Assembly (NCBI RefSeq): GCF_005484585.1
Contig: NZ_CP039435.1
Span: forward strand, 1,116,001 to 1,180,000
Length of the DNA stretch: 64,000 nt
Source: Brevundimonas sp. SGAir0440
GTDB lineage: Bacteria > Pseudomonadota > Alphaproteobacteria > Caulobacterales > Caulobacteraceae
Direction of reading: 5' to 3'
Positions 5,921 to 51,008 of the stretch are shown here, in pieces. The translations under genes and the position numbers were made by a program. Position 1 is the first letter of the stretch; each line of letters begins with the position of its first letter. The notes beneath the pieces were generated by a model, which searched no databases, had not been told where the DNA came from, and saw nothing but the letters and a program-made list of their open reading frames with translations.

Positions 5921-6042
5921 GACCTCTCGACGCCGGCATCATAGGCGGCCGGGACGTCGCGATAGGAATATCGTCCTACCATGCGCCAAAATCGGTCGTG
6001 GCGGCTTAACCGCCTTGCGGTTGCGGGTGGGACGTTGTGCTT

Positions 6043-6162
6043 GGTGAGTGGTGAGTGGTGAGTGGTGAGTGGTGAGTGGTGAGTGGTGAGTGGTGAGGGG
6101 GGAGCATTCGTATGCGCTCTTTCGGCGTCGCCCACTCACGAGTCACGCATCACCACTCACAC
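6043..6162. repeat. Heptad hairpin repeat, copy A: seven exact GGTGAGT units plus inverted arm
   Basis: From 6043 to 6091 the seven-base unit GGTGAGT is repeated seven times exactly, followed by one variant unit (GGTGAGG, 6092-6098). After a spacer, 6132-6162 holds the complementary arm (CACTCACGAGTCACG, then CACCACTCAC), so the transcript could form a long imperfect hairpin. The same design occurs five more times in the window, all in the GTA cluster. A GANTC site lies in the right arm at 6140-6144. Confidence 0.9.
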
Positions 6163-6180
6163 TCCAGGCCGCCCAAACAG

Positions 6181-6361: not shown

Positions 6362-7063
6362 ATGCGCGTCCTGTTGATTGAAGACGATCACGCAACCGCC
6401 CAAAGCATCGAACTGATGCTGAAGTCGGAAGGCTTCAACGTCTATACGACGGACCTGGGCGAGGAAGGCATCGATCTGGGCAAGATCTATGACTATGACC
6501 TCATTCTTCTTGACCTGAACCTGCCGGACATGAGCGGCCTGGAAGTCCTGCGCCAGCTGCGCGTCGGCAAAGTCAATACCCCGGTCATGATCCTGTCGGG
6601 CAGCCACGAGATCGAAACCAAGGTCAAGACCTTCGGCGGCGGCGCCGACGACTATATGACCAAGCCCTTCCACAAGGACGAACTTATCGCGCGCACCCAC
6701 GCCGTGGTCCGCCGCTCCAAGGGTCACGCCCAGGCGATCATCCACACCGGCGAGATCGCCGTGAACCTGGACGCCAAGACGGTCGAGGTGAACGGTCACC
6801 GCGTCCATCTGACGGGCAAGGAATACCAGATGCTGGAGCTGCTCTCGCTCCGCAAGGGCACGACCCTGACCAAGGAAATGTTCCTGAACCACCTGTACGG
6901 CGGCATGGACGAGCCCGAGCTGAAGATTATCGACGTCTTCATCTGCAAGCTGCGCAAGAAGCTGGCCACCGCCGCCGACGGCAAACACTATATCGAAACC
7001 GTCTGGGGCCGCGGCTATGTCCTGCGCGACCCGGCCGAGGGCGTCGTCACCGTCGCCGCCTGA
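6362..7063 (+). CDS. ctrA: Cell cycle response regulator CtrA
   Basis: CtrA is the OmpR-type master regulator of the Caulobacter cell cycle; phosphorylated CtrA silences the origin and activates flagellar, division and (indirectly) GTA genes. The 233-residue protein has a receiver domain with IEDD, the phospho-acceptor Asp51 in LLDLNLPD and Lys in TKPFHKDE, followed by a winged-helix domain ([37 protein letters not shown]). The last residues are Val-Ala-Ala; an Ala-Ala end is needed for ClpXP degradation of CtrA in Caulobacter. The start at 6362 follows a strong Shine-Dalgarno; an upstream in-frame extension is not conserved. It is monocistronic, with a terminator after it. Confidence 0.98.
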
Positions 7064-11976: not shown

Positions 11977-13119
11977 TCAGGCGGGGGTCTTGAAGCCTGC
12001 CGCTATGGCGGCCGCCATCGGATTGGGGCGGCCGAAGCTGTCGAAGGGCAGGGGCTTGTCCCGGCCGTCGTCCTTGTCGCCCTGACGATACCAGCTGTCG
12101 GTGTCGCGCAGGCCCCAGACGGTGAAGGCGAATTGCTGAGCCCTGGGCAGGGCCGCAAAGGCCGAGGCCAGTTCGGTGACGCGGGCGCCCTGGGCCGCGA
12201 TTCGGTCGGCCTGGCTGCTGAGGTCCAGCCGGTTTTCGGTGCGCAGGGTGCAGTCCAGCTCGGACACATGGATCGGCAGGCCGAACTGGCCGATCTCGCG
12301 CATAAAGGCGGCGATGACGCCCTCGGGGATGTCGATCCACAGGTGGGATTGCAGGCCCAGCCCCTGCAGCGGACAGCCGGCCTTCAGCAGCCGCTCGACC
12401 AGTTTCAGGAACTGCGCGCCCTTGGCCGGCACGCTTTCCTGATTGTATTCGTTGAGAAACAGGATGGCGTCAGGATCCGCGATCCGGGCCTTTTCGAACG
12501 CGCGCAGGATATAGCCGTCGTGGCCGTATCGCGCCGACCAGTGGCAGTCGCGCAGGCCCGAGCCGTCGTCCAGGATCGGCTCATTGACCACGTCCCAGCT
12601 GCGGACCTTGCCACGATAGCGGCCGGCGACCGTGGCGATATAGCCGTCGAAGGCGCGGTCGAAGCCGGCGCCCGACAGGCCGGCGAAGGCCTCCTTGCCT
12701 TGCGCGTACCAGATCAGGGTGTGGCCATGCATCGCCATGCCCTCGGCCCGGGCGAAGGCGGCGATACGGTCCGAGCGGTCGAAGTTGGGCCGGTCCAGGC
12801 CGTTCGCCAGGATGTATTCCATCTTCATCTCCCACTCGGGCGTGAGTTGGGAGACGTTGGCGCGGGCCAGCGCGATCCAGTCCGGGTCGTCGATCTGGCT
12901 GGCCTTGATCGCCGTGCCGAAGGGCGCCGGGGTGATGGATTTCAGCGGAGGAACGTTGGGCGGCGACGGCTCCGCCGAGGCGAAGCGGTCGCAGGCGGCC
13001 AGGTTGCTCAAGGAAAGCGCGAGCGGGGCGACGAGGATTGTGCGGCGACTAAAGCCCTTCTCCCCTCGGGGGAGAAGGTGGCTCGCGGAGCGAGACGGAT
13101 GAGGGGGCTGTATGGTCAT
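11977..13119 (-). CDS. GH10 endo-1,4-beta-xylanase, Tat/lipoprotein-like export signal
   Basis: The 380-residue protein carries a glycoside hydrolase family 10 domain: the acid/base Glu in WDVVNEP, the nucleophile Glu in HVSELD, and substrate-site motifs MHGHTLIW and TPEWEMK. It cleaves internal xylan bonds. The leader contains FSRRTILV followed by a hydrophobic stretch and NLAAC, suggesting twin-arginine export and possibly lipid attachment. The first 22 or so residues are encoded by a dispersed intergenic repeat (see findings), so the annotated ATG at 13119 may be a replacement for an original start nearer the twin-Arg. It is otherwise isolated from other polysaccharide genes. Confidence 0.9.
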   Translation of the reverse strand: MTIQPPHPSRSASHLLPRGEKGFSRRTILVAPLALSLSNLAACDRFASAEPSPPNVPPLKSITPAPFGTAIKASQIDDPDWIALARANVSQLTPEWEMKMEYILANGLDRPNFDRSDRIAAFARAEGMAMHGHTLIWYAQGKEAFAGLSGAGFDRAFDGYIATVAGRYRGKVRSWDVVNEPILDDGSGLRDCHWSARYGHDGYILRAFEKARIADPDAILFLNEYNQESVPAKGAQFLKLVERLLKAGCPLQGLGLQSHLWIDIPEGVIAAFMREIGQFGLPIHVSELDCTLRTENRLDLSSQADRIAAQGARVTELASAFAALPRAQQFAFTVWGLRDTDSWYRQGDKDDGRDKPLPFDSFGRPNPMAAAIAAGFKTPA

Positions 13120-13198
13120 CCCTGATCTCTCATCTCGAGGCCGGCGCCCCCTCATCCGAGCCCTTCGGGCCCACCTTCTCCCCCGAGGGGAGAAGGGA
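13053..13198. repeat. Inverted pair of dispersed CTCATCC/CCTTCTCCC repeats
   Basis: Two arms in opposite orientation each contain a local hairpin (CCTTCTCCCCTCGGGGGAGAAGG at 13056-13078, and its counterpart at 13171-13196) linked to CGGATGAGGGGG or its complement. A related element lies at 40838-40886. Such repeats are common between genes in Caulobacterales; here one arm forms the 5' end of the xylanase gene. Confidence 0.75.
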
Positions 13199-16670: not shown

Positions 16671-16682
16671 CCACCCCGCCTC

Positions 16683-16809
16683 CGCTCATCCCCGCGAAAG
16701 CGGGGACCCAGTCCTTTCGCATGGCAGGGTGCGTAGGATTGGCGGTGTGACCGAACTCAAACGATGAAACGCCCAAAGCGCTGGGTCCCCACTTTCGCGG
16801 GGATGAGCG
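16683..16809. repeat. Intergenic element with 29-bp inverted repeats
   Basis: Positions 16683-16711 and 16781-16809 are inverted copies with one mismatch, each centred on CCCCGCGAAAGCGGGG-like sequence. The 69-bp interior has no gene. It lies between the chemoreceptor and the exporter gene that converge, so it may also end both transcripts. No terminal duplication is evident. Confidence 0.8.
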
Positions 16810-16815
16810 GAATCT

Positions 16816-38105: not shown

Positions 38106-38228
38106 CGTCATTCCGGGGCGTCCGATGGACGAACCCGGAACCCAGGGGGCTTTTGAAAACGCTGGGGTCAGCGCCGAGGGGCGGCCCTGGCTTCCGGGTT
38201 CCGCGCGGGGCGCGGCCCCGGAATGACG
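38106..38228. repeat. Dispersed CGTCATTCCGGGGC inverted repeat
   Basis: CGTCATTCCGGGGC (38106-38119) is inverted at 38215-38228, with a second inner pair around GAACCCGGAA (38131 and 38193). It separates the terminase gene from the head-spike genes, a place where GTA genes normally abut. Confidence 0.7.
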
Positions 38229-39709: not shown

Positions 39710-40765
39710 ATGGGGGAGCGGTTCTACGGGGTGCAGGCGCTGCGGTTCGCGGCGGCGACGGCGGTGGTCGTCACGCACGCCGTGGATCTGGCCGGGACGC
39801 GGCTGGGGCTGGAGACCGCGCTGGCCGGTGGGACGCTGGAGAACTTCGGCGCCGTGGGCGTGGACGTGTTTTTCGTCATCAGCGGCTTCATCATCGCCAC
39901 GACGACGCAGGGTCAGACGGGCGTGGGCGCGGCCGGGGCCTTTCTGTGGCGGCGGTTTCGGCGGGTGGCGCCGATCTACTGGCTGCTGTCGCTGCCGATC
40001 CTGATCGGGATGGCGCGGGGCGGGACGCTGAGCCCGGAGGTGGCGGCAGCGACGTTCCTGTTCTGGCCGTTCAGCGGGCTGGAGATGACGTTTCCGGCGC
40101 TGGGGCCGGGGTGGACCCTGTGTTTCGAAATGCTGTTCTACGCCGGGTTTGGGCTGGCGATAGCGGGCGGCCGGCGGGTCGGCTGGAGGCTGGTCGGGGC
40201 CTATGCGGCGATGCTGGCGGCCGGATTGGTCGTGGCGGCGCCGGTTCTGAGGTTCTGGGGCGCGCCGATCATTGTGGAGTTTCTGCTGGGCGTCGGGATC
40301 GCCTGGGTTTGGCGGTTCGCGCCGCCTCGGTTGGGGCTGTGGGCGGTCGGTCTGGCGATGCTCGGGTTCGGGCTGGGCCTGGTGGTCGGCTATGGCGGCA
40401 TCGACGATGTGCGGGCGCTGAACGATCCGTGGAACGGGTTGAGGCGGGCAGTGATCTGGGGTCTGCCCAGCGCCCTGCTGGTGTTCGGCGTGGTGCGGAT
40501 GGAGCGGACGGACCGGGCGCCGGGGCGGCTGTCGCAGGCGGCGGCCTTCATGGGGGATGCGTCCTATTCGATCTATCTGGTCCATGGGCTGGTGATCCGG
40601 GCTTTGGGGCGGATGTTCGAGAGCGGGATGGTCGCCCTGCCGGGGGATGCGGTGGTGGGGCTGACTGTGATCGCCAGTCTGGCGGCGGGGGCGGTCGTGC
40701 ATGTGTGGATCGAGCGGCCGATGCTGAAACTTATGCGCCCCCTCTCCCGGCGGGAGAGGGCTTGA
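39710..40765 (+). CDS. Membrane O-acyltransferase (acyltransferase_3, OafA-like)
   Basis: The 351-residue protein has about ten transmembrane helices and acyltransferase_3 motifs: RFAAATAVVVTHA (catalytic-type His), VDVFFVISGFII, RRFRRVAPIYW, GWTLCFEMLFYAG and DASYSIYLVHGLV. Enzymes of this family acetylate O-antigen, capsule or other glycans. It is not a known GTA gene; it lies between spike and portal genes on the same strand. The last eight or so residues are encoded by a dispersed repeat. A link to the esterase spike (see findings) is inference. Confidence 0.85.
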   Translation: MGERFYGVQALRFAAATAVVVTHAVDLAGTRLGLETALAGGTLENFGAVGVDVFFVISGFIIATTTQGQTGVGAAGAFLWRRFRRVAPIYWLLSLPILIGMARGGTLSPEVAAATFLFWPFSGLEMTFPALGPGWTLCFEMLFYAGFGLAIAGGRRVGWRLVGAYAAMLAAGLVVAAPVLRFWGAPIIVEFLLGVGIAWVWRFAPPRLGLWAVGLAMLGFGLGLVVGYGGIDDVRALNDPWNGLRRAVIWGLPSALLVFGVVRMERTDRAPGRLSQAAAFMGDASYSIYLVHGLVIRALGRMFESGMVALPGDAVVGLTVIASLAAGAVVHVWIERPMLKLMRPLSRRERA

Positions 40766-40886
40766 GCGTCCGAGAGCCTAGCGATCGGTCAACGCGAAAG
40801 GGTGAGGGGCAGGGGGTGCGAACTGGCCCGCCGGTCGACCCTCATCCGGCTCTTCGAGCCACCTTCTCCCACTGGGAGAAGGGACA
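40738..40886. repeat. Dispersed CCTCTCCC/CCTTCTCCC repeat
   Basis: A short hairpin (CCCTCTCCCGGCGGGAGAGGG, 40740-40760) overlaps the end of the acyltransferase gene, and a second module (CTCATCCGGCTCTTCGAGCC, then CCTTCTCCCACTGGGAGAAGG) lies at 40841-40884. They resemble the modules at 13053-13198 and fill the gap before the portal gene. Confidence 0.7.
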
Positions 40887-40906
40887 AGACATCTGAGGAG
40901 ATTGCG

Positions 40907-42079: not shown

Positions 42080-42309
42080 CCGAACATCACATCCGGCGCG
42101 TGCCGACGGCGCTGCTGATCGCCGTCGTGGTGCAGACGGTGGGCGGCCTGGTCTGGGCCGGGGGCGCCGCGGCGCGGATCGCGACGCTGGAGCAGCGGGT
42201 CGGGGAGCAGAGGCTGGTCGCCGAACGGCTGGCGCGGCTGGAGGTCCAAGGCGAGGCGACGGCGGCGGCCGTGGAGCGGATCGAGCGGCGGTTGGAGGGG
42301 GCGAGATGA
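42076..42309 (+). CDS. Small GTA protein (g3.5 position)
   Basis: The 77-residue protein has a hydrophobic helix (TALLIAVVVQTVGGLVWAG) and a coiled-coil tail (ATLEQRVGEQRLVAERLARLEV). It is coupled by ATGA to portal and protease. In the Rhodobacter GTA a small gene of unknown function occupies this place. Likeness is by position and size. Confidence 0.7.
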   Translation: MTEHHIRRVPTALLIAVVVQTVGGLVWAGGAAARIATLEQRVGEQRLVAERLARLEVQGEATAAAVERIERRLEGAR

Positions 42310-42848
42310 GTGGCGAGTGGCGAGTGACGAGTGGCAAGAAAGCGGAGCGAGGTGAGAAGCGCTCGCCACTCGCTACTCGCCACTCGCCACTTCTTATAGA
42401 AGGCTACGCCTCGCTGTGGGGCGTGGCGGATCTGAACGGGGACGTGTTGCAGGCGGGGGCGTTTGCGGACAGTCTGGCCAGGACGGGGGTTGAGGGGGTG
42501 CGGATGCTGAACCAGCACGATGCGCGGGCGCCGGTCGGGGTCTGGGAGCAAATCGTCGAGGATGCGCGCGGCCTCTTCGTGCGCGGCCGGATCGAGGACT
42601 GGTCGGCCGAGGCGCGGTTCGCCGGGGCGCTGAGCCGGGCCGGGGCGCTGGACGGGCTGTCGATCGGCTACCGCACGGCGCGGGCCCGGCGTCAGGGACG
42701 CTTAAGGGTGCTGAGCGCGGTCGAGCTGTGGGAGGTGTCGCTGGTGACGTTCCCGATGCTGCCGGGGGCGCGGTTCAGTTGTTGCGATCGTAATGCTCAC
42801 GACCCATGCGGCGGAGGTCTTCGAGTGTCTGGCCATCAGGCGGTTTGA
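42306..42848 (+). CDS. GTA prohead protease (g4), both ends altered
   Basis: The core (about residues 31-158) is an HK97-type prohead protease: IEGYASLWGVADLNGDV, the His of MLNQHDARAPVGVWEQI, and ALDGLSIGYRTARAR with the catalytic Ser. The first 30 residues (MSGEWRVTSGKKAERG...) are encoded by a heptad hairpin repeat. The last 20 or so (after GARFS) come from a 567-bp cassette; without the cassette the gene would end ARFSLA and a stop at once. The enzyme may still work because both changes are outside the core. Confidence 0.88.
   Translation: MSGEWRVTSGKKAERGEKRSPLATRHSPLLIEGYASLWGVADLNGDVLQAGAFADSLARTGVEGVRMLNQHDARAPVGVWEQIVEDARGLFVRGRIEDWSAEARFAGALSRAGALDGLSIGYRTARARRQGRLRVLSAVELWEVSLVTFPMLPGARFSCCDRNAHDPCGGGLRVSGHQAV
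42309..42391. repeat. Heptad hairpin repeat, copy B
   Basis: The left arm (42309-42335, units AGTGGCG, AGTGGCG, AGTGACG) pairs with 42365-42391, two mismatches in 27. It begins at the third base of the g3.5 stop codon and lies wholly within the protease reading frame. Confidence 0.9.
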
Positions 42849-43347
42849 TGTAAGCTGTTGCGGGCGGTTGATCGTCGGCACATCTGTTTTTCAGGTTTTC
42901 CGCGCCGCCAAGAAGATTGAAGCCGCCCAAGTCGTTGCGCCGCAGCTTCCAGCGACGCGAGCCAAGATCGTCGCGGTAGCCTGTGTGTAGTACAGCCAGA
43001 ACGGTCAGGCTTCCGCGGCGGACATCGCCAAAGTGAGTTCGGCTGACGTCTAGATCAACTATCCATGGCCAACTGATTACGATGCAATCGTCAAGACAAT
43101 CGGGGAACACGGTCGGTGTTTGCGACGAGATGTGAGCCGAGACTTCGGCGTCATAGCATTCTGCGTCTTGGGCTAACACTCTGTCGATATCGCAGACTAA
43201 ACCTGCCGTGACCACCATCAGTGCGGCGAGCAATAGACGGGTCATTCGATCATTCATCTTGTTTAGCCGGTGCTCATTAGGTGAGCCCTTATGTCGGCGC
43301 AGTAGAGTGTCGCAACGTTTGCCGTTGCTGCCAAGCGCGGTTCAGTT
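42768..43347. mobile_element. 567-bp gene cassette bounded by 13-bp direct repeats
   Basis: GCGCGGTTCAGTT occurs at 42768-42780 and again at 43335-43347. Deleting one copy and the interior restores a protease C-terminus ARFSLA followed by TGA at 43354-43356. The interior is visibly less GC-rich than its flanks and carries one antisense gene whose stop codon lies in the left repeat. There is no transposase or terminal inverted repeat. A 13-bp target duplication or repeat-mediated recombination could explain it. Confidence 0.75.
42775..43257 (-). CDS. Exported protein of the cassette, unknown function
   Basis: The 160-residue product has a signal peptide (LLLAALMVVTAGLVCDIDRVLA, cleavage probably near LAQ) and a mature domain with four Cys (ECYDAEV, FPDCLDDCIVISW, NRCADD) that may form disulfides. 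No family is recognised. Codon and base use are less GC-biased than the GTA genes around it. A promoter-like TTGCGA-N17-ATAAGG lies upstream on the minus strand near 43310-43285. It ends inside the protease gene, antisense to the GTA operon. Confidence 0.65.
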   Translation of the reverse strand: MNDRMTRLLLAALMVVTAGLVCDIDRVLAQDAECYDAEVSAHISSQTPTVFPDCLDDCIVISWPWIVDLDVSRTHFGDVRRGSLTVLAVLHTGYRDDLGSRRWKLRRNDLGGFNLLGGAENLKNRCADDQPPATAYIKPPDGQTLEDLRRMGREHYDRNN

Positions 43348-44160
43348 TGGCTTGAGGGCTTGGAAGACGCCGTTGCGGTCGAGGGTTTCGGCGAGGGCGG
43401 CCATCTGGGCGCGGCCCTTCTTGCCGTGGAGATAGCGCAAGGCCCAGCCGGCGAGCACCAGGCCGAAGATCCAGCCGACGTGCAGCACCAGGTGGGCGAA
43501 CAGGATGAAGACGGCCGCCAGCGCATAGGCGCCGAGATAGACCAGCGCCAGCTGGCCGCCGCGCGAGGCCGTGGGGTTGGACAGGCCGGCGATGATCTCG
43601 GCCAGACCCGGTGAGGCGGCGGCGGACGGCAGGGCGTGATCGGCGGGCTTTGAGGCCGGTTGGGGCGCGGGTTTGGGTTGGGCTTTTGGCGCGGCTTGGG
43701 CGGCGGGCGCAGAGGCCGGCCGGGCGCTGGGCTTGGGCCTGGGCGGGATCGGATCTGGCGCGCGCCGGGCGGGACGGAACAGGATCGAGCGGCCGGCTTC
43801 GTCGACGGTGAAGACCTCTTCGAAGGCGGTGGTCGAGAAGTCGATGGCGCGGGTGTCCTGGCCATAGCTCTGGCCATGCAGGGCCGTCAGCCGGCCCTGG
43901 CGCAGCTCGATCTGGAAGCCGACGGGGTCGGGCAGGCCGGCGACCATGGCATGGACGGTGCCGAACAGGCCGGTGGCGTCCGGGTTGGCGGCCAGACGGT
44001 TCGCATCGACGACGATCTGGGAATAGAGGCCGGCGCCGGTGTTGCGACGCAGGCCCGGCGAACTGGCGGCGACCTGGGCCCGCAGGTCCGGCACGCTGTC
44101 GCCCATCTGCCAGATCATCGCGTCCATGACGGCGCTTTCGAGGGGCGTCAGATGGGACAT
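43342..44160 (-). CDS. Membrane protein with a soluble N-terminal domain, unknown function
   Basis: The 272-residue protein has an N-terminal domain (about 1-118: LTPLESAVMDAMIWQMG, NTGAGLYSQIVVDANRL, FSTTAFEEVFTVDEAGRS), a Pro/Ala-rich linker (about 125-180) and a C-terminal membrane part with two helices (LALVYLGAYALAAVFILFAHL, VGWIFGLVLAGWALRYLHG). No family name is known to me. It is read antisense within the GTA cluster, 10 bp after another minus-strand gene, and ends in the 13-bp repeat. Confidence 0.65.
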   Translation of the reverse strand: MSHLTPLESAVMDAMIWQMGDSVPDLRAQVAASSPGLRRNTGAGLYSQIVVDANRLAANPDATGLFGTVHAMVAGLPDPVGFQIELRQGRLTALHGQSYGQDTRAIDFSTTAFEEVFTVDEAGRSILFRPARRAPDPIPPRPKPSARPASAPAAQAAPKAQPKPAPQPASKPADHALPSAAASPGLAEIIAGLSNPTASRGGQLALVYLGAYALAAVFILFAHLVLHVGWIFGLVLAGWALRYLHGKKGRAQMAALAETLDRNGVFQALKPN

Positions 44161-44170
44161 GGGGCGGGCG

Positions 44171-44806
44171 TCACAGAGCAGGGAAGGGGCGACGACCTGA
44201 AGCTTTCGCCTCAGCGACGTAGTGATCGTTCATCTTGCGCAGCTGTGCTCGAAGGAAAAGCAGCAAGGCCAGTACAAACAAGGTCGTGAAGACAGGCCAA
44301 TACGGGATGGTCGGTATCCCCAAGTGGCTCAGGAAACCCAGCGGGTCGCGCAAGCCCGCCACCGCGCAGAACATGATCCACACGGAAATGGACACGACGT
44401 CGATGATGTTGTCGGTCCTTTTGGACGGCGGAGCGCCCCATCGCGCAATCAACGCCTGGATGGAGCGTGGCACGGTTTCGATAGGCGGTTTCTTGGTGAC
44501 GAGCAGGAATTCGCCGAGAGGAACAGGATCGAGTTCGTGGGATGTCTGAAGACGCTGTAGCGGAGATAGGCGACGCGCAAGCGCGCGCCGTTTGCGACGT
44601 GCGACGAAGGCGAGGCCATATTGAAGGCCCAAGGCGCCAAAGATCGCCAGCACGGGCAATGCATAGACGATTTCGGGAACCGACCCTTCGTAGTGGTTCA
44701 AGATGGCGACGGCCGTTAGCGGTACGAACGGCGCCCCTATCCAGATGAGCTTGAGCAGCCAGGAGCGCTGCAGGCCTGCCACCAGTTTCGAGGTCGTGTC
44801 GGTCAC
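44171..44806 (-). CDS. Integral membrane protein of unknown function
   Basis: The 211-residue protein has about four hydrophobic helices (residues about 20-35, 48-68, 135-155, 170-190) and basic loops (RRKRRALARRLSPLQRL). No family is recognised. It is the first gene of an antisense two-gene unit within the GTA cluster and is divergent from the capsid gene 45 bp away, so this short gap must hold promoters for both or the capsid is transcribed from upstream. Confidence 0.65.
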   Translation of the reverse strand: MTDTTSKLVAGLQRSWLLKLIWIGAPFVPLTAVAILNHYEGSVPEIVYALPVLAIFGALGLQYGLAFVARRKRRALARRLSPLQRLQTSHELDPVPLGEFLLVTKKPPIETVPRSIQALIARWGAPPSKRTDNIIDVVSISVWIMFCAVAGLRDPLGFLSHLGIPTIPYWPVFTTLFVLALLLFLRAQLRKMNDHYVAEAKASGRRPFPAL

Positions 44807-44851
44807 GCCTCGACCCTAACCGCAACACGCGGTTCTTCAACCGGAGATATC

Positions 44852-46078
44852 ATGAAAGAGACCAAACAGGCTTCGGGCCAGCCCGAGGCGCGCGATGTCG
44901 TGCGCGAGATGATGGCGGCGTTCGAGGCGTTCAAAGGGGCGAACGACGCCCGGCTGGGCGAGATCGAGCAGAAGGCGGCGGCCGATGTGCTGCTGGAGGA
45001 GAAGGTGGCGCGCATCGACCAGGCGGTCGCCTCGGCCCAGGCGCGGCTGGACCGGGTGATGAGCCAGAGCCGTCGTCCGGCGATCGGCGGCGAACCGGCC
45101 GAGCCGGCGTCTGCGCCCGAGGCGAAGGCGGCGTGGGACGGGTATTTGAAGACAGGCCAGTCTGGCGCGCTGGAGGTCAAGGCGGGCCTGTCGGGCGGCG
45201 CGACCTCGGGCGGCTATGTCGTGCCTTATGAGACCGAGCGGGCCATCGAGCGTCGGCTGATGGCGGCCAGTCCGATGCGCGAGATCGCGACGGTCAGGAC
45301 CGTGGCGGCCGGCGTGTTCCGTAAGCCGGTGTCGACGGCGGGCGTGGCCTGCGGCTGGGTGGCGGAGACGGCCGCGCGGCCCGAGACGGACCCGGCGACC
45401 CTGGCCCTGCTGGAGTTTCCGTCGGCCGATCTCTACGCCAATCCGGCGGCGACGCAGGCCCTGCTGGACGACGCCATGGTCGATCTGGACGAATGGCTGG
45501 CGGCCGAGGTCGAGGACGCCTTTGCGGCGCAGGAGACCCAGGCCTTCATCAATGGCGACGGAGTGAACAAGCCCAAGGGGCTGCTGTCCTATCCGACCGT
45601 GGCGGACGCGGGCCAGGCCTGGGGTCAGATCGGCTATGTCCCCTCTGGCGCGGCGGGCGGCTTTGCGGCGACCAGTCCGGCGGATCGCCTGATCGACCTG
45701 ATCTATGCGCCCAAGGCCCAGTACCGACCGAACGGCCGGTTCGTGATGAACCGCAAGACGGTCTCGGCCGTGCGCAAGTTCAAGGACGCGGACGGCAACT
45801 ATATCTGGCAGCCGGCGACGCGGCTGGGCGAGACGGCCAGCCTGCTCGGCTATCCGGTCACCGAGATCGAGACCATGCCGGACGTGGCGGCCAACAGTCT
45901 GTCGATCGCGTTCGGGGACTTCCAGCGGGGGTATCTGATCGTGGATCGGGCGGGCGTGCGCGTGCTGCGCGATCCCTATTCGGCCAAGCCCTATGTGCTG
46001 TTCTACACGACTAAGCGCGTGGGGGGCGGGGTGCAGAACTTCGACGCGATCAAGGTGATGAAGTTCGCCGCGACGTAG
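44852..46078 (+). CDS. GTA major capsid protein (g5), HK97 family
   Basis: The 408-residue protein has the HK97 fold layout: an N-terminal coiled-coil scaffolding-like delta domain (about 1-75: REMMAAFEAFKGANDARLGEIEQKA), then the mature shell domain from about 100 (LSGGATSGGYVVPYETER, PVSTAGVACGWVAETAARPETDP, AFINGDGVNKPKGLLSY, ETASLLGYPVTEIETMPD, FDAIKVMKFAAT). The protease g4 would remove the N-terminal part. The gene is intact. It follows antisense genes rather than g4 directly, unlike typical GTAs. Confidence 0.95.
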   Translation: MKETKQASGQPEARDVVREMMAAFEAFKGANDARLGEIEQKAAADVLLEEKVARIDQAVASAQARLDRVMSQSRRPAIGGEPAEPASAPEAKAAWDGYLKTGQSGALEVKAGLSGGATSGGYVVPYETERAIERRLMAASPMREIATVRTVAAGVFRKPVSTAGVACGWVAETAARPETDPATLALLEFPSADLYANPAATQALLDDAMVDLDEWLAAEVEDAFAAQETQAFINGDGVNKPKGLLSYPTVADAGQAWGQIGYVPSGAAGGFAATSPADRLIDLIYAPKAQYRPNGRFVMNRKTVSAVRKFKDADGNYIWQPATRLGETASLLGYPVTEIETMPDVAANSLSIAFGDFQRGYLIVDRAGVRVLRDPYSAKPYVLFYTTKRVGGGVQNFDAIKVMKFAAT

Positions 46079-46082
46079 TCGC

Positions 46083-46196
46083 GGAGTGACGAGTGGTCAG
46101 TGGCGAGTGGTCGCTCGCCGCTGACGTTTGAAACGGCGTTGGGGCTGGGTAGGCGTGGCGGTCTCGCCACTCGCCACTCGTCACTCGCCACTTCCG
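46083..46196. repeat. Heptad hairpin repeat, copy C
   Basis: GAGTGACGAGTGG (46085-46097) and further units to about 46110 are complementary to CCACTCGCCACTCGTCACTC near 46166-46186, around a 60-bp spacer. It fills the capsid/adaptor gap. CGAGTGG-type units predominate, as in copy B. Confidence 0.85.
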
Positions 46197-46214
46197 AGCG
46201 GAGCGAGGTTTGAT

Positions 46215-46478
46215 ATGGCGCAGCCGGTGACGGTGGCGGAGGCGAAGCTGTTTCTGAGGGTCGAGCACGAGGTCGAGGACGGCTTGATCCAGACCCTGAT
46301 CGCGGCGGCGCAGGCGAGGGTGGAGGCGGATGTGGGATTGAGCCTGACGTCCACTTCGCCCGCGCCGCTGAGGCTGGCGATCCTGATGCTGGTGCTGCGG
46401 GCCTATGAGCGGGGCGAGGCGGTGGAGATCGAGCGGGTGGAAGGCTGGATCGCGCCATACCGCGTGGTGCGACTTTGA
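46215..46478 (+). CDS. GTA head-tail adaptor (g6)
   Basis: The 87-residue protein matches the gp6-like connector family: VTVAEAKLFLRVEHEVEDGLIQTLIAAAQARVEADVG helical start and a conserved second half (RLAILMLVLRAYERGE). It should bind the portal on the outside. It starts at 46215, after repeat C; TTGA overlap with the next gene. Confidence 0.87.
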   Translation: MAQPVTVAEAKLFLRVEHEVEDGLIQTLIAAAQARVEADVGLSLTSTSPAPLRLAILMLVLRAYERGEAVEIERVEGWIAPYRVVRL

Positions 46479-46813
46479 CTGGGCGCTATCGGCCTTCGGC
46501 CTACTTGAGCGCCGACATGAGGATCCTGGCGGGGTTGTTTCAGCCGGTGAAGGCCGAGACGCCGTATGGCGGGCGCAGCGTGTCGTTCGAGGCTGTGGGG
46601 TCCGCCTGGCTGAAGTGCGGGGCGCGTCGGCGCACCGAACGCGGCGAGGGCGATCAGCGGCGGACGGTCGAGACGATGGGCGCCGAGGCGCGGGCGGACG
46701 CCCGGCTGTCGGTCGGTCGCGTGCTGCGGTTCGGCGGGGCGGACTGGCGGATTGTCTCGGTCGAGGACGTGCGGCCGGGGCGGTCGAAGCTGGATCTGGA
46801 GCGGGTGCGATGA
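46475..46813 (+). CDS. GTA head-tail stopper/closure protein (g7)
   Basis: The 112-residue protein is a head-closure type: beta-rich core with FEAVGSAWLKCGARRR, SVGRVLRFGGADWRIVSVED and the final LDLERVR. The start is uncertain: TTG 46475 gives a coupled overlap with g6, while ATG 46517 gives a shorter product closer to family size. ATGA overlap with the next gene. Confidence 0.8.
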   Translation: MTGRYRPSAYLSADMRILAGLFQPVKAETPYGGRSVSFEAVGSAWLKCGARRRTERGEGDQRRTVETMGAEARADARLSVGRVLRFGGADWRIVSVEDVRPGRSKLDLERVR

Positions 46814-47235
46814 GGGATCATGAAAGCGCGCTGCAGAAGGCGGTGCTGGCGGCGCTGAAGGGGGACGCGGCGGTGCAGGCCCTGCTGGGCGGGCGAATGT
46901 TCGACTTCGCCGCTTTCGGGGCGCCGGAGGACGCCGCGTTTCCGCATCTGGTGATCGGGCGGTGCGAGAGCCGGCCGGTGGCGGCCGACGGGGGCGGGGT
47001 CGAGCAGAGGCTGACCCTGACGGGCGTGTCGCGGTTCGCCGGTTCGGAAGAGGCCAAGGCGGTGGCGGCGGCGGTTCGGGCCTGTCTGCACGAGGCCATG
47101 CTGGAGGCCGACGGGGTGCGGACGTCGACGCTGAGGGCGACGTTCGCGGACGTGTTCCGCGCGGGCGACGGGCGGCGGACCTATGCGGTCATGCGGCTAA
47201 GGGCGGTGACGGAAGAGGTGAGTGGTGACGCGTGA
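46810..47235 (+). CDS. GTA tail terminator (g8), DUF3168
   Basis: The 141-residue protein is a DUF3168 family member: ESALQKAVLAALKGDAAVQALLGG, FPHLVIGRCESRP, RTYAVMRLRAVTEE. It would form the ring between head connector and tail tube. Its last residues (VSGDA) are encoded by the start of a heptad hairpin repeat. ATGA overlap with g7. Confidence 0.88.
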   Translation: MRDHESALQKAVLAALKGDAAVQALLGGRMFDFAAFGAPEDAAFPHLVIGRCESRPVAADGGGVEQRLTLTGVSRFAGSEEAKAVAAAVRACLHEAMLEADGVRTSTLRATFADVFRAGDGRRTYAVMRLRAVTEEVSGDA

Positions 47236-47302
47236 GTCGTGAGTGGCGACGACGCTTGCCGGCGCGCAATCACCCGTCACGAGTCACAATTCACGACGAG
47301 AG
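47222..47302. repeat. Heptad hairpin repeat, copy D
   Basis: GTGAGTGGTGACGCGTGAGT (47224 onward) with GTGAGTGGCGAC is complementary to CACGAGTCAC and TTCACGAC near 47279-47295. It overlaps the g8 stop and ends just before the g9 ribosome binding site (GAGAGGGAGA). GANTC sites are at 47234-47238 and 47281-47285. Confidence 0.85.
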
Positions 47303-47314
47303 GGAGAGACAGAA

Positions 47315-47737
47315 ATGACCGCACAAGCGGGCAAGGACATGTTGCTAAAGATCGAGGGCGCCCCAGTGGCGTCTCCGGGCGTGTTCACGACGGTGGCGGG
47401 GCTGAGGGCGCGGACGATCTCGCTGAACGCCAAGACGGTGGATGCGACCGACGGCGACAGCGCCGGGCGGTGGCGCGAGCTGCTGGCGGGCGCAGGTGTG
47501 AAGTCGGCGGCGGTGTCGGGGCAGGGCATCTTCCGCGATGCCGCCTCCGATGCGCTGGTGCGCGAGGCCTTCTTCGATCAGGCGGCGAAGCGGTGGCGGC
47601 TGATCGTGCCGGACTTCGGCGTGCTGGAGGGGCCCTTCCTGGTGGCGGCGCTGGAATACGCCGGCGAGCACGAGGGGGAGGCGACGTTCGCGCTGAGCCT
47701 GGCCAGCGCCGGGGCCATCGGGTTCAGCGCGATATGA
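47315..47737 (+). CDS. GTA major tail tube protein (g9)
   Basis: The 140-residue protein matches phage major tail proteins of the TP901-1/GTA type: MLLKIEGAPVASPGVFTTVAGLRA, TVDATDGDSAGRWREL, GIFRDAASDALVREAFF, ATFALSLASAGAIGFS. It forms the hexameric tube rings. The ATG at 47315 follows a good Shine-Dalgarno; ATGA overlap with the next gene. Confidence 0.9.
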   Translation: MTAQAGKDMLLKIEGAPVASPGVFTTVAGLRARTISLNAKTVDATDGDSAGRWRELLAGAGVKSAAVSGQGIFRDAASDALVREAFFDQAAKRWRLIVPDFGVLEGPFLVAALEYAGEHEGEATFALSLASAGAIGFSAI

Positions 47738-48012
47738 ACGGCGTGCGGGGCGAGGCCGCGGTGATCCTGGCCGGCGTGCGGCGTCGGGCCTGTCTGACGC
47801 TGGGGGCGCTGGCGGAGATCGAGACGGGGCTGGGCGTCGATGGGATGGCGGCGATCGCAGAGCGAATGAAGACGCTGTCGGCGCGGGATCTGATGGTGGT
47901 GCTGGCGGCGGTCTTGCGCGGGGGCGGGGAGGTCGAGCCGGAGGTGGCGGCGGTCGATCCGCGCGAAGCGGCGGTCGCGGTGGCGCAGGCGTTTGCGGCC
48001 GCTGCACGATGA
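47734..48012 (+). CDS. GTA tail assembly chaperone (g10)
   Basis: The 92-residue protein (GVRRRACLTLGALAEIETGLG, then RMKTLSARDLMVVLAAVLRGGG) belongs to the GTA gene 10 family, a tail assembly protein. ATGA overlaps join it to g9 upstream and g10.1 downstream. No domain beyond the family signature is visible. Confidence 0.85.
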   Translation: MNGVRGEAAVILAGVRRRACLTLGALAEIETGLGVDGMAAIAERMKTLSARDLMVVLAAVLRGGGEVEPEVAAVDPREAAVAVAQAFAAAAR

Positions 48013-48185
48013 CCCCGTGGGGCGAGATGTTGCGGCTAGCGGCGGCGATGGGCGTGGCGCCCGAGGCGTTCTGGCGGCTGTCGTTGAAGGAGTGGCGGAT
48101 GTTGACGCAGGCGCCGCGCGGCACGGCCCCTTTGGGACGCGAGGGGCTTGCGCGATTGATGGAGGGTTGGCCGGATGGCGGATGA
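48009..48185 (+). CDS. Short GTA tail chaperone (g10.1)
   Basis: A 58-residue protein starts at the ATG overlapping the g10 stop (ATGA) and ends at TGA 48183-48185, overlapping the tape-measure start by 11 bases. Sequence: WGEMLRLAAAMGVAPEAFWR, LSLKEWRMLTQAP, EGLARLMEGWPDG. The Trp-rich LKEW segment is the signature of the small GTA tail protein family (TIGR02216-like). Its partner is probably g10 in a chaperone pair for the tape measure. Confidence 0.82.
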   Translation: MTPWGEMLRLAAAMGVAPEAFWRLSLKEWRMLTQAPRGTAPLGREGLARLMEGWPDGG

Positions 48186-48699
48186 GTTCGGGCGAGACGG
48201 GATCGATCAGGTCGCGCTGAGAGCGGCCGAAGCCGGGGCGGCGCTGGAGGCGTTGAAGGCGCCCGCGCAGGAGGCGGCGGACGCCATCGAAGCGGCGTTC
48301 GGGCGGGCGGGCGACAGCCTGACGCGATCGCTGGCGCGGGCGGCGGCGGACGGGGAGGTGTCCCTGGCGGAACTGGCGCGGGCGGTGCTGAATGCGGTCA
48401 ATGCGGCGGCCGGGGCGAACGGCGGCGGCTTGAGCGCGGCGATCCAGTCGGTGATGTCCAGTTTCGGCGGGGCGCGGGCGGACGGCGGGCCGGTGCTGGG
48501 CGGCGCCGCCTATCTGGTCGGCGAGCGCGGGCCGGAGGTGTTCCGACCGGCGACGGGCGGCGAGATCGGGCCGGTCGGCGGCGGGGGCGTGACGGTCAAT
48601 GTGGCGGTGGACGGCGGGGCGCCGGCCCTGCTGCGGTCCGAGGCGCAGATCGCCCAGATGCTGGCGCGGGCCGTCAGCCTGGGCGCCAGGCGGATGTGA
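48175..48699 (+). CDS. GTA tape measure protein (g11)
   Basis: The 174-residue protein is a short tape measure, as in GTAs with very short tails: helical N-terminus (LRAAEAGAALEALKAPAQEAADAIEAAFG), then a Gly/Ala-rich part with the conserved GGPVLGGAAYLVGERGPEVFRP motif of phage tape-measure C-termini, ending VNVAVDGGAPALLRSEAQIAQML. The start at 48175 overlaps g10.1. Confidence 0.87.
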   Translation: MADEFGRDGIDQVALRAAEAGAALEALKAPAQEAADAIEAAFGRAGDSLTRSLARAAADGEVSLAELARAVLNAVNAAAGANGGGLSAAIQSVMSSFGGARADGGPVLGGAAYLVGERGPEVFRPATGGEIGPVGGGGVTVNVAVDGGAPALLRSEAQIAQMLARAVSLGARRM

Positions 48700-48709
48700 C
48701 GACGGGTGG

Positions 48710-48797
48710 ATGGTGAGTGGTGAATCGTGATTGGGGATGCGGTGTTGGCAAACGCGCCACCTTCCGCTCACGATTCACGCATCACGATTCACCCGTG
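48710..48797. repeat. Heptad hairpin repeat, copy E
   Basis: GGTGAGTGGTGAATCGTGAT (48712-48731) is complementary to CACGATTCACGCATCACGATTCACC (48770-48793 region) around a 40-bp spacer. It lies after the tape-measure stop, where the antisense DUF805 genes begin. GANTC sites: 48722, 48772 and 48786. Confidence 0.88.
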
Positions 48798-48802
48798 AAA
48801 GT

Positions 48803-49516
48803 TCACTCGCCCTTCGGGTTCGGGCCGAAGCGGTTCTCGCCCTTCTGGCTGTCGACCAGACCGATCCACAGCAGGAAGGCCAGGCCCAGCAGGCCAGCGA
48901 TCGCGAACAGGCCGAAGGCCGGGCCCATCAGGGCGAAGACGGCGGCCGGGTTGCCCTCGTAGTAGTCCTCCGAATAGCCGTTGGCGACGTGGGCGGCGAT
49001 GATCATGGCGAAGCCGGCGATGACGGCCACGACCGAGCCGACCCAGGGAATGGCGATCAGCCAGCCGGTCTTGCCCATGTCGTGCAGGCGCTTCACCGAA
49101 ATGGCCAGGTTGGGCCATATCAGGACCAGGCCGAACAGGTTGATGATCGGGATCCAGCTGATGACAACGTTGACGCCCAGCAGGATCAGCCAGCCGATCC
49201 AGAAATGGCTGCGGCGGATGCGACCCTCGAAGGACAGGAACAGCTTCTGCCAGTCGAAACCGGCGACAGCGGTCGAGGTCGAGCTGGCGTAACCGCCGGC
49301 GACGCCGGTTGTGGTCGGCGAACCCGCCAGAATCAGGATCTGGGTGGCGGCGGCGCCTTCGGGGACGAAGTCGACGCGGACGCCGGCGGCGGGCACGGCG
49401 GGCGATTGCAGCGCGGCCGAGGTGAAGTCGTAACGGGCGCCGTCGTCGCCGCTGATCAGACCGACGCCGGTCGAGGCGTCGTAGCTGAGAATTTCACCGC
49501 GCACTGAGATCTCCAT
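48803..49516 (-). CDS. DUF805 membrane protein with N-terminal cold-shock-like domain, copy 1
   Basis: The 237-residue protein has an N-terminal domain (VRGEILSYDASTGVGLISGDDGARYDFTSAA) like an OB-fold cold-shock module, a Gly/Ser linker and a DUF805 membrane domain with about four helices and the signature SVKRLHDMGKTGWL. Function unknown. A paralogue lies next at 49583. Both are antisense to the GTA genes, between g11 and g12. Confidence 0.82.
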   Translation of the reverse strand: MEISVRGEILSYDASTGVGLISGDDGARYDFTSAALQSPAVPAAGVRVDFVPEGAAATQILILAGSPTTTGVAGGYASSTSTAVAGFDWQKLFLSFEGRIRRSHFWIGWLILLGVNVVISWIPIINLFGLVLIWPNLAISVKRLHDMGKTGWLIAIPWVGSVVAVIAGFAMIIAAHVANGYSEDYYEGNPAAVFALMGPAFGLFAIAGLLGLAFLLWIGLVDSQKGENRFGPNPKGE

Positions 49517-49582
49517 GACTGGCGCCACGTCCGGCGCGGCGGCAACATTGCCGACCCGTGCAATCCCAGCAACCCGAAAAGG

Positions 49583-50245
49583 TCAAGCTGGCCGATCCTG
49601 ACGCGTTTGTAATGCGGGCGATCCCTTGGGCGGCGCACCGTGGACGTTCGCGTCGGGCTGCGAGGGCAGGAGGCTGACGATGAAGGTGAACAGGCCGCCG
49701 ACATAGGGGACGAGGCTGATCAGGATCAGCCAGCCGCTGAGCCCGACATCGTGGAAGCGGCGGATGGTGACGCAGACGTAGGGAACAATCAGCGCGAAAT
49801 AGACCAGGGCGACGATGCAGATCCAGGCGACGCCCCAGGCCTCCATATCGTAGCCGGCCTCGGCATCGAGGACGGCAAGGCCGATGATCGGCATGAAGGC
49901 GAGCATCAGGATCAGGAAGTGGAACAGGGCGAAGGACCAGTATTCCTTTCGCCGCGCCCGGCCGTGGCCCTCGATATAGAGGTCGGTGACGCACCGGACG
50001 AAATAGCCCCACACGCCCAGGTCCGGTTCGGGGGCGTATAGGGCCGGCCCCAGAGGGCCGTCACGCAGGACCATCAGGCTGAGCGCCTGGGCGTCCTGAA
50101 CCACGAAATCGACGCGGCGGCCGGGTTCGAGACCGGCGGCGGCCGAGGTGAAAGCGTAGCGCTGCAAGTCGTCGCCGCTGATCAACCCCTCGCCGGTCGT
50201 GGGATCGTAGCTGAGAATTTCGCCGCGCAAGGCCGTGTCTCGCAA
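49583..50245 (-). CDS. DUF805 membrane protein with N-terminal cold-shock-like domain, copy 2
   Basis: Similar to copy 1: LRGEILSYDPTTGEGLISGDD at the N-terminus, then four predicted helices and IRRFHDVGLSGWLILIS. No ATG lies at the expected start; TTG at 50245 fits alignment with copy 1 and avoids overlap with the upstream gene, but an earlier start cannot be excluded. The duplicate pair is 66 bp apart on the same strand. Confidence 0.75.
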   Translation of the reverse strand: MRDTALRGEILSYDPTTGEGLISGDDLQRYAFTSAAAGLEPGRRVDFVVQDAQALSLMVLRDGPLGPALYAPEPDLGVWGYFVRCVTDLYIEGHGRARRKEYWSFALFHFLILMLAFMPIIGLAVLDAEAGYDMEAWGVAWICIVALVYFALIVPYVCVTIRRFHDVGLSGWLILISLVPYVGGLFTFIVSLLPSQPDANVHGAPPKGSPALQTRQDRPA

Positions 50246-50314
50246 AGACGCGGCAGGGGCGCCGCCGCCAAGGTGTGGACCGGGCGGGCGGCATTGCACA
50301 ACAGGAGAGTGTTG

Positions 50315-50935
50315 ATGGACGCCTTTCACGAGGTGCGCCTGCCCGCGCGGCTGGCGTTCGGTTCGACCGGCGGGGTGGAGCGAAGGACGGAGATCACGAT
50401 GCTGGCGTCGGAGTTCGAGCGGCGCTCCACGCCCTGGGCGCTGGGGCGCAGACGGTATCTGATCGGGGCGAACCTGAGGTCGCTGGACGACATGGCCGAG
50501 CTGGTCGCCTTCTTCGAGGCGCGGCGGGGGCGGCTGTACGGGTTCCGGTTCAAGGACTTCGCCGATTTCAAATCATGCGCGCCGGGCGGGGTGGTGGCGG
50601 CGGCCGATCAGGTGCTGGGCGTGGGCGACGGGGTTCGGACCGCGTTCGATCTGGTGAAGCGCTACGGCGATGTGGAGCGGTCGATCGTCAAGCCGGTCGA
50701 GGGATCGGTGCGGATTGCAGTCGGCGGTGTCGAGACGACGGCCTTCGCGGTCGACTTCGCGACCGGGCGGGTGACGCTGGAGCGCGCGCCGGAGGCGGTC
50801 GTCGCGGTGACGGCTGGGTTTCAGTTCGACACGCCGGTGCGGTTCGACTCGGACCGGATCGAGACGACGCTGGAGAGCTTCGAGGCCGGACGGATGGCGG
50901 CGGTTCCGCTGATCGAGGTTCGGACGGGCGCGTGA
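50315..50935 (+). CDS. GTA distal tail protein (g12), DUF2460
   Basis: The 206-residue protein matches DUF2460: FHEVRLPARLAFGSTGGVERRTEI, ELVAFFEARRGRLYGFRFKDFADF, RIETTLESFEAGRMAAVPLIEVR. It would form the hexameric distal tail ring. AGGAGA precedes the ATG at 50315. It begins 70 bp from the antisense DUF805 genes, so its promoter or read-through must cross them. Confidence 0.9.
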   Translation: MDAFHEVRLPARLAFGSTGGVERRTEITMLASEFERRSTPWALGRRRYLIGANLRSLDDMAELVAFFEARRGRLYGFRFKDFADFKSCAPGGVVAAADQVLGVGDGVRTAFDLVKRYGDVERSIVKPVEGSVRIAVGGVETTAFAVDFATGRVTLERAPEAVVAVTAGFQFDTPVRFDSDRIETTLESFEAGRMAAVPLIEVRTGA

Positions 50936-51008
50936 GGGGTGACTCGTGAATCGTGACTGGGGCGGGAGCACGCCCGGCAAGGTCACGAGTCACGGCTCAC
51001 GATTCACG
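50934..51008. repeat. Heptad hairpin repeat, copy F
   Basis: GTGACTCGTGAATCGTGACT (50939-50957) is complementary in parts to GTCACGAGTCACG and CTCACGATTCACG (50982-51006). It starts at the g12 stop codon and ends before the g13 start. Four GANTC sites lie in 65 bp (50941, 50948, 50987, 51001). Confidence 0.9.

Follow-up and report, generated by a model that had tools for sequence, protein, structure and literature searches.

Cyanobacterial heptamer repeats are named STRR, REPIN-RAYT systems carry a GTAG or CGTC foot tetranucleotide, and the CIR repeats of Caulobacter, which Chen and Shapiro are said to have described in 2003, reportedly consist of a long motif (>100 bp), one of whose repeats contains a CcrM site. 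Here several known systems are compared with six hairpins that lie in and near the gene transfer agent (GTA) cluster of Brevundimonas sp. SGAir0440, in a stretch of 64,000 nucleotides (contig NZ_CP039435.1, positions 1,116,001 to 1,180,000 of the forward strand; the window), and whose arms are made of 7-base units (heptads). In Xanthomonas, GGGAATC heptamers are heterogeneous (GGGANTN), intergenic and often arranged as inverted pairs (70 in Xcc, 75 in Xac) that can form stem-loops (PMC4692102). Heptamer inverted pairs are therefore already known, and like the window family those of Xanthomonas are tandem 7-base units in two close inverted arms. However, the Xanthomonas units are G-rich, with a GGG run and quadruplex potential, whereas the window units GAGTGGC and GTGANTS contain no GGG run, and unlike in Xanthomonas, the Brevundimonas unit changes between related species at one orthologous site, its copies concentrate at GTA junctions in some genomes and some copies lie in reading frame. 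Cyanobacterial and Beggiatoaceae repeats also favour tandem heptamers and are mostly intergenic, those of Beggiatoaceae lying near start codons, but they are mostly direct rather than hairpin-building and the TAACTGA type has a fixed sequence (PMC4679880).

The REP/BIME and REPIN-RAYT families (PMC3116915, PMC3733652) are likewise dispersed palindromes, mostly extragenic, with mRNA stabilisation among the roles proposed; in contrast to them, the Brevundimonas arms are heptad arrays. A RAYT/Y1_Tnp protein as the mover was rejected here, with 0 Y1_Tnp matches in the genome itself and any match in only 3 of 26 genomes. Within GTA clusters, the terGTA element of C. crescentus comprises three 150-bp direct repeats with inverted repeats behind the first gene, gtaT, and was shown to terminate (PMC11150451). 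By description it resembles the window hairpins in placing GC-rich inverted repeats between GTA genes, in a member of the same taxonomic order, at a different junction. In E. coli operons, stabilised cistrons end on their 3' side in hairpins that lack a U-tract and often lie within the next gene (PMC5927463); the absence of a U-tract and the location inside the next gene are shared features, and a position between cistrons of unequal abundance is presumed here too, whereas those protective hairpins are largely conserved between related species and the Brevundimonas hairpin discussed below is swapped for unrelated sequences. Rfam covariance models at gathering score had no match in the window or in four related loci (L001, L002, L003, L010), and no description of heptad repeats in Brevundimonas was found in searches of open-licence PMC literature, which is weak evidence of absence. 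In-place turnover of the unit, in which period and pairing persist, looks new, as does the capsid slot, and neither species dialects nor in-frame use in the protease gene was met in the literature searched.

The six hairpins belong to a class of short dispersed heptad hairpins in Brevundimonas, and one Caulobacter locus looks alike. At a probability of about 0.5, our favoured reading is that these dispersed, REP-like hairpins have been repeatedly recruited as RNA 3'-end structures that set capsid, and perhaps tail, protein levels, a function we infer. The copies are as follows.

Hairpin A, 6034..6165 (6039-6158 in the heptad scan), no strand assigned: GTGAGTG heptads between the divergent DUF6456/DnaA_C-like gene pair and ctrA; fold z -6.05.
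Hairpin B, 42306..42393 (42308-42391 in the inverted-repeat search), plus strand: GAGTGGC heptads at the 5' end of the prohead-protease open reading frame (ORF); fold z -9.25.
Hairpin C, 46083..46195 (46084-46192 in the inverted-repeat search), plus strand: GAGTGGC heptads between the capsid stop TAG at 46076-46078 and the g6 start at 46215; fold z -5.54 (46079-46195 folded).
Hairpin D, 47218..47300 (heptad arms 47213-47299), plus strand: GTGANTS heptads, with the g8 stop at 47233-47235 in the left arm and the g9 start at 47315; fold z -2.03.
Hairpin E, 48700..48798 (48702-48796 in the inverted-repeat search), no strand assigned: GTGANTS heptads between the g11 stop at 48697-48699 and a minus-strand gene ending at 48803; fold z -6.00.
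Hairpin F, 50931..51006 (50931-51001 in the inverted-repeat search), plus strand: GTGANTC heptads over the g12 stop at 50933-50935, before g13; fold z -5.87.

The fold z compares the RNA fold of each copy with 200 dinucleotide shuffles; five copies fold far below their shuffles, while D is weak, with 7 of 200 shuffles folding as well. A plain inverted-repeat search finds B, C, E and F and a heptad scan finds D and A, which confirms the six positions given in a first-pass annotation made from the sequence alone. Its description of arms built from 7-base units is likewise borne out: the units fit one formula, GANTSGY, with mismatches, in the subtypes GAGTGGC (B, C) and GTGANTS (A, D, E, F). Scanning for three GANTSGY units with at most two mismatches gives six clusters in the window, all on both strands, against seven, two of them on both strands, in a 1.2 Mb sample of the same genome (60 stretches), and the pattern read backwards gives one and none, respectively. 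A strict detector of hairpins with period p, which misses D, E and F, finds four in the sample and three in the window (A, B, C) at p=7 and none at p=5, 6, 8, 9 or 10. Other statements of the annotation hold in part. Most copies do lie at gene junctions, but B is inside the protease ORF, D carries the g8 stop and E sits between convergent ends; A is upstream of ctrA as claimed and equally in front of the divergent DUF6456 gene pair. That most copies begin at a TGA is loosely true, since the arms start at TGA in B and F, just past it in E and five bases past a TAG in C, with a stop inside D. The two arms of one copy are more alike (mean similarity 0.64) than arms of different copies in one genome (0.50; 50 of 58 items with long enough arms), but the stronger form, that the own arm is always the best match, was rejected, as this is so for only 6 of 39 left arms; what arms have in common is the subtype, GTGA- or GCGA-type (r=0.89).

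The evidence that carries the favoured reading comes from the gap between the capsid gene (g5) and the head-tail connector gene (g6), where C lies. Relatives were gathered by a capsid search of named genomes, the best 80 of 247 loci being kept (L-numbered loci), and hairpin occupancy was counted at a score of at least 11 over loci holding both genes, window included, with slot gaps counted from 45 bp. A hairpin is present at g5/g6 in 70 of 79 loci, and in none when each gap is shuffled once; the corresponding numbers are 14/66 at g3/g3.5, 23/70 at g3.5/g4, 23/74 at g8/g9, 8/71 at g9/g10 and 7/63 at g12/g13. Among control gaps of 60-300 bp in the Brevundimonas genome, the same score is reached by 33 of 259 between same-strand genes, 29 of 52 between convergent and 4 of 110 between divergent genes, so that by hairpin content the capsid/g6 gap resembles the end of a gene more than the inside of an operon. 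Gaps flanking the junctions in the relatives' own loci (hairpins in 0/11 same-strand, 1/2 convergent and 0/1 divergent gaps) were too few to serve as a control. Of 75 capsid/g6 gaps that were folded, 60 have a z below -3, and of the nine g5/g6 rows without a score-11 hairpin, L023, L046 and L066 show a short one by eye. At the same junctions, relatives have different hairpin families or nothing.

What fills the slot differs widely: the 79 loci were labelled as long inverted repeat (35), GAGTGGC (13), GGGCTTA (8), GGCARCA (8), GAGGGNC (7, of which three match loosely), GGGNCTA (1, a Caulobacter locus) and other (7). On a quick capsid tree of 78 rows (one of 79 was dropped for N), in which 24 of 75 inner branches are open and which recombination may blur, the slot changed state at least 30 times, against a shuffled mean of 41.0, and even if only well-supported branches are counted, each listed group needs 5 to 9 changes. 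Weak labels on the tree are L052, L072, L074 and L076, of which by eye L072 and L074 are GAGTGGC-type and L076 is an ORF-sized gap; L017 has a short gap with one arm, L021 and L035 are masked by N, and L040 and L078 hold a heptad arm together with a long inverted repeat. Among the heptad hairpins of the slot, the 7-base period stays while the unit sequence changes. Strong periodicity was found in 70 of 169 gaps, at lag 7 in 61, lag 14 in eight and lag 9 in one, whereas among five shuffles of each gap four were strongly periodic, one of them at lag 14 and not one at lag 7. Rows that lack a strong lag number 9 of 29 in class i, 3 of 37 in class H and 65 of 65 among the long inverted repeats. The left arm of C in the window has one 7-base unit fewer than in L001, L010 and L011, a direct sign of unit gain or loss.

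The unit families are spread unevenly over 25 genomes: GGGCTTA has 118 matches in the genome of L038 and 0 in that of L010, GAGTGGC has 53 in the latter and 0 in the genome of L033, GAGGGNC 54 in the genome of L033 and GGCARCA 75 in that of L048. In many of the 25 at least two families occur side by side, in three none of the four main families is present, and the backwards patterns have two matches in all. Dialect and slot agree in many genomes but not in all, the slot of L031 being GGGCTTA in a genome that elsewhere has mostly GGCARCA. Of 190 genomes drawn across the class, GAGTGGC three-unit runs occur in two, both of them Brevundimonas and the only members of the family in the draw. A tentative extension is that the seven-base period itself is heritable: a replicating hairpin class may have its arms rewritten together by slippage and by copying of one arm from the other within a hairpin. 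Each species would then arrive at a heptad dialect of its own without losing period or pairing, and whichever dialect is available would be enlisted time and again for a hairpin 3' of the GTA capsid gene.

Support for pairing comes from an alignment (A4) of 13 rows chosen by us, comprising 8 of the 13 loci labelled GAGTGGC and 5 of the 7 labelled GAGGGNC (L072 among them), whose slot hairpins agree in their stop context, in the CGCTCG of the inner loop and in a CGAGCAAAGCGAGG tail and differ in both arms. Here 10 of 33 pairs changed on both sides and covariation is 0.262 against 0.154, with 0 of 500 shuffles as high; the covariation score, the both-side pairs and the both-side cells beat 500 of 500 shuffles and all slides, the structure having been derived from the same alignment, which favours it over slides. 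A heptad T-A pair has become G-C at columns 22/160, 29/153, 36/146 and 43/139, in three or four of the 13 sequences each. For the predicted fold this covariation in the capsid slot is strong evidence of pairing, not a count of independent changes. The idea that pairing is kept while sequence drifts thus finds its support in divergent orthologues of the capsid slot (10/33 pairs), whereas compensatory change among close relatives was looked for and little was found: at g8/g9 both sides have changed in 3 of 26 pairs, a level that 47 of 500 shuffles reach (14/500 for changed cells, 4/500 for paired cells), and at g5/g6 in one of 37. In the GAGTGGC and GAGGGNC loci a conserved mini-hairpin, YCGAGCAAAGCGAGR, stands just ahead of the g6 start (A4 columns 164-178), its outer pair varying from C-G to U-A.

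That one slot has been kept by many spellings suggests that the fold matters more than the letters, and because selection would see the fold, unit sequences could be rewritten or swapped. In the favoured reading, the hairpin in the transcript at the capsid junction would give the capsid message its own protected 3' end, either by stopping 3'-5' exonucleases after cleavage downstream or by making some RNA polymerase stop, with the outcome that more capsid than connector would be made; copies beside the tail-protein gene may act likewise. Slippage, with gain or loss of units, and copying between arms or between loci would keep the arms matched. Of the roles proposed in the first-pass annotation, tuning of RNA decay appears to fit the capsid junction best. 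We take the DUF6456 gene to be gafY-like and the divergent pair to be gafYZ-like, and since this gene lies beside hairpin A, anti-termination may exist here too and may let hairpins persist inside the operon. By analogy, the E. coli operon hairpins would be the precedent for protection (PMC5927463) and terGTA with GafYZ that for partial termination (PMC11150451).

Beyond the window, the whole genome (3,153,531 bases, single contig) has 37 forward and 38 reverse matches to three heptad units with at most two mismatches, against 12 and 4 for the pattern read backwards. Grouped by eye, the matches fall into about 15 places, A-F and nine others, and nine more lone matches look like chance; with at most one mismatch, the 1.2 Mb sample has five such elements. 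Placement is biased and not of even density, the alternative that had been set against it beforehand: of about 15 elements in 3.15 Mb, 13 are at gene boundaries, the ones inside ORFs being B and an arm in mutL, and five lie within 8.7 kb of GTA cluster. Of the genome-wide matches, 13 of 44 are in the 21,224 bp of the GTA, where 0.30 are expected (nominal p 2.5e-18, the matches of one element not being independent). The nine other places are presumably the dnaN/recF, rpoB/rpoC, fabD/fabG and ruvA/ruvB junctions, a gcrA-like divergent promoter and the single arm in mutL, together with two convergent gene ends and one further divergent region; at rpoC the gene caller put a minus-strand ORF, and recF was called as starting within the hairpin. 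The repeat itself provides the stop codon of the presumed fabD and of one convergent gene. Over the 25 genomes and four unit families, 65 matches lie in GTA loci against 6.9 expected, unevenly spread.

Several results weigh against capsid-level control as the role of these hairpins. The same elements occur at two essential-operon junctions, presumably rpoB/rpoC and dnaN/recF, and are therefore not special to GTA stoichiometry. Nor is GTA enrichment general: of 16 genomes, five are clearly enriched (window, L005, L010, L011, L014), L032 is weak (3/49), L003 is not clear (1/26), six have matches only outside the GTA (0/83 for L046, 0/32 for L025, 0/14 for L038, 0/9 for L008, 0/2 each for L002 and L024) and three have no heptad match. 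A first junction census gave no significant excess (Fisher p 0.068, 0.091), with a strict detector that caught only C of the six; it was replaced by the gapped detector. Outside the genus a hairpin at the capsid 3' end is common and recurrent and not universal in the class: among 29 further capsid loci, taken from the best matches of 44 genomes with a capsid and including one of the same genus, a hairpin of that score lies within 130 nt downstream of the capsid gene in 10, some of which have T-runs as judged by eye, and in others the capsid gene runs directly into the next ORF. Among close relatives, pairs are broken about as often as they are compensated. In A4, one of the five measures, further pair types, is not above chance (58/500), and few independent events may stand behind the counts, the four changed sequences perhaps reflecting one or two.

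A different explanation, possible though doubtful in our judgement, is that the hairpins are neutral passengers, selfish or slippage-born repeats that accumulate where inserts are harmless; the GTA would tolerate them because most cells do not express it and the RNA polymerase that transcribes it is anti-terminated, which would make hairpins with polar effects elsewhere nearly costless there. The window does hold the DUF6456 gene, presumably gafY-like, and in C. crescentus the GTA is silent under normal lab conditions and GafYZ-dependent anti-termination reads past a strong terminator (PMC11150451). Occupied sites also vary among close relatives, g8/g9 being empty in five loci (L002, L006, L007, L008, L012). 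At the empty site, as in L006 (GAAGAG GTGGGAGAAGGCCG ATG), the stop overlaps the start, and at the filled site a heptad stop lies upstream; by eye there is no clear target-site duplication of the kind that marks a MITE, and the flanks are partly rewritten. Neutral accumulation leaves unexplained that the g5/g6 slot is seldom without a hairpin despite all its changes of content, and that g6/g7 and g7/g8 are unused; the covariation in the capsid slot counts against it as well. These two junctions also contradict a preference of the elements for stop/start overlaps, as they mostly overlap or abut and yet hold no score-11 hairpin in 77 and 75 loci, respectively.

The label "mobile, non-coding" given by the annotation stands in its first half, with copies differing among close relatives and some sites empty, but B-type inserts are mostly in frame. 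The g4 ORF starts at ATG 42306, overlapping the g3.5 stop, so that B lies within the g4 frame, and g4 has just two possible in-frame starts, 72 and 90 nt ahead of its conserved part, neither of them lying beyond the left arm of B. Among g3.5/g4 gaps of at least 20 bp, 55 of 60 are 2 mod 3, whereas the g5/g6 gaps divide into three classes of 25, 24 and 30; the same lean in frame is seen at g9/g10 (13/20) and g12/g13 (8/11). Of the 29 g3.5/g4 loci with an element 24 keep the frame, and 31 of the 60 gaps have no recognised element; in most H-type loci the g4 start codons are no further downstream than the left arm, though L040 and L053 might use a start in the loop. The frame-keeping gaps and the start positions therefore make B-type hairpins, by reading frame, N-terminal codons of the prohead protease, with translation predicted. 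An in-frame palindrome in a gene, a trait of Rickettsia palindromic elements, is seen at g3.5/g4 only, as judged from these gap lengths.

Unlikely, in our view, is that the hairpins are partial terminators, roadblocks that would hold the cluster silent as long as GafYZ is absent and reduce distal gene expression once the cluster is on. The idea has a precedent in terGTA of C. crescentus (PMC11150451), and 4 of 8 GGGCTTA slot hairpins have a T-tract within the final 60 nt of the gap; in other orders a GC hairpin with a T-run right behind the capsid gene is seen by eye, for example in L207 and L211. However, such a tract is absent behind the GAGTGGC (0/13, window included), GAGGGNC (0/4) and GGCARCA (0/7) slot hairpins and occurs in only 2 of 41 long inverted-repeat or remaining rows, the elements in rpoB/rpoC and dnaN/recF lie where strong termination would harm, and B is within an ORF.

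GANTC is the methylation motif of CcrM, and GTGANTC units might thus act at the DNA level, as clustered GANTC sites affecting cell-cycle control or DNA structure, which we regard as very improbable. GANTC occurs four times in F, three in E, two in D and once in A against 0.09-0.15 expected, a density in D, E and F about 20- to 45-fold above the mean of the genome sample; across 91 units the N position takes any base (30 G, 26 A, 20 C, 15 T), and copies stand before the presumed ctrA and gcrA genes. B and C, however, have no GANTC, nor do the GGGCTTA, GGCARCA and GAGGGNC units, and of the 91 units only 60 retain the T of the site and only 57 its C. A CcrM-site function as the general role was rejected on the evidence of B, C and the other dialects.

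Family models identify the portal, prohead protease, HK97 capsid, head-tail connector, tail completion and major tail protein genes in the window, as well as a Rcc01695-type distal tail protein and the GTA baseplate hub; the g-numbers are those of the first-pass annotation, which we assume to apply. The genes next to the hairpins are the following.

g4, 42306..42848, plus strand: prohead protease gene (PF04586; TIGR01543), its N-terminal codons predicted to be hairpin B.
g5, 44852..46078, plus strand: major capsid gene, HK97 type (PF05065, E 2.6e-91; TIGR01554).
g6, 46215..46478, plus strand: head-tail connector gene (PF05135; TIGR01560).
g9, 47315..47737, plus strand: major tail protein gene (PF06199; TIGR02126).
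ctrA, 6362-7063, plus strand: presumed identity, named as in the first-pass annotation.
DUF6456 gene and small DnaA_C-like gene, 4839-5902, minus strand: divergent from ctrA (DnaA_C at 29 bits against a cut-off of 31.5).

PF20057 is present in Caulobacter vibrioides among the controls. Two minus-strand gene pairs are inside the GTA cluster, at 43342-44806 (between g4 and g5) and 48803-50230 (between g11 and g12). A second family of longer GC-rich inverted repeats (about 160-200 bp; CTCCCTCCCC...GGGGAGGG and kin) fills the same GTA junctions, at g5/g6, g3.5/g4, g8/g9 and g9/g10, in L002, L004-L009, L070 and others. In L008 such a repeat appears, by eye, to have taken the place of a heptad hairpin's right part, the left arm being still there, and as judged by eye one lies in the window at 40737-40890, between an acyltransferase-like ORF and the portal gene. 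Outside the GTA, the window has long near-perfect inverted repeats at 13055-13197 (27/27 paired, loop 89) and 16681-16811 (30/31 paired, loop 69). A weaker hairpin with another heptad, GAACCCG, at 38131-38201 is like one at L102:7658-7714 and is a possible second dialect in this genome. Brevundimonas-like GTA clusters also occur in records titled Pseudanabaena (L040), Porphyrobacter (L050) and Bordetella (L059), probably contaminant or misnamed contigs.

If the favoured reading is true, the capsid slot would hold an RNA-level part that selection keeps for its shape and nothing else, one place having been filled by three or more unrelated heptad spellings (GGGCTTA, GGCARCA, and GAGTGGC together with the closely related GAGGGNC) and by several long inverted repeats. 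Brevundimonas would then offer a natural test of whether hairpins within an operon set the protein ratios of a phage-like particle, and the dialects would offer one of why some bacterial genomes favour seven-base repeats. For GTA biology, it would add a post-transcriptional layer of control beside promoter activation and anti-termination.

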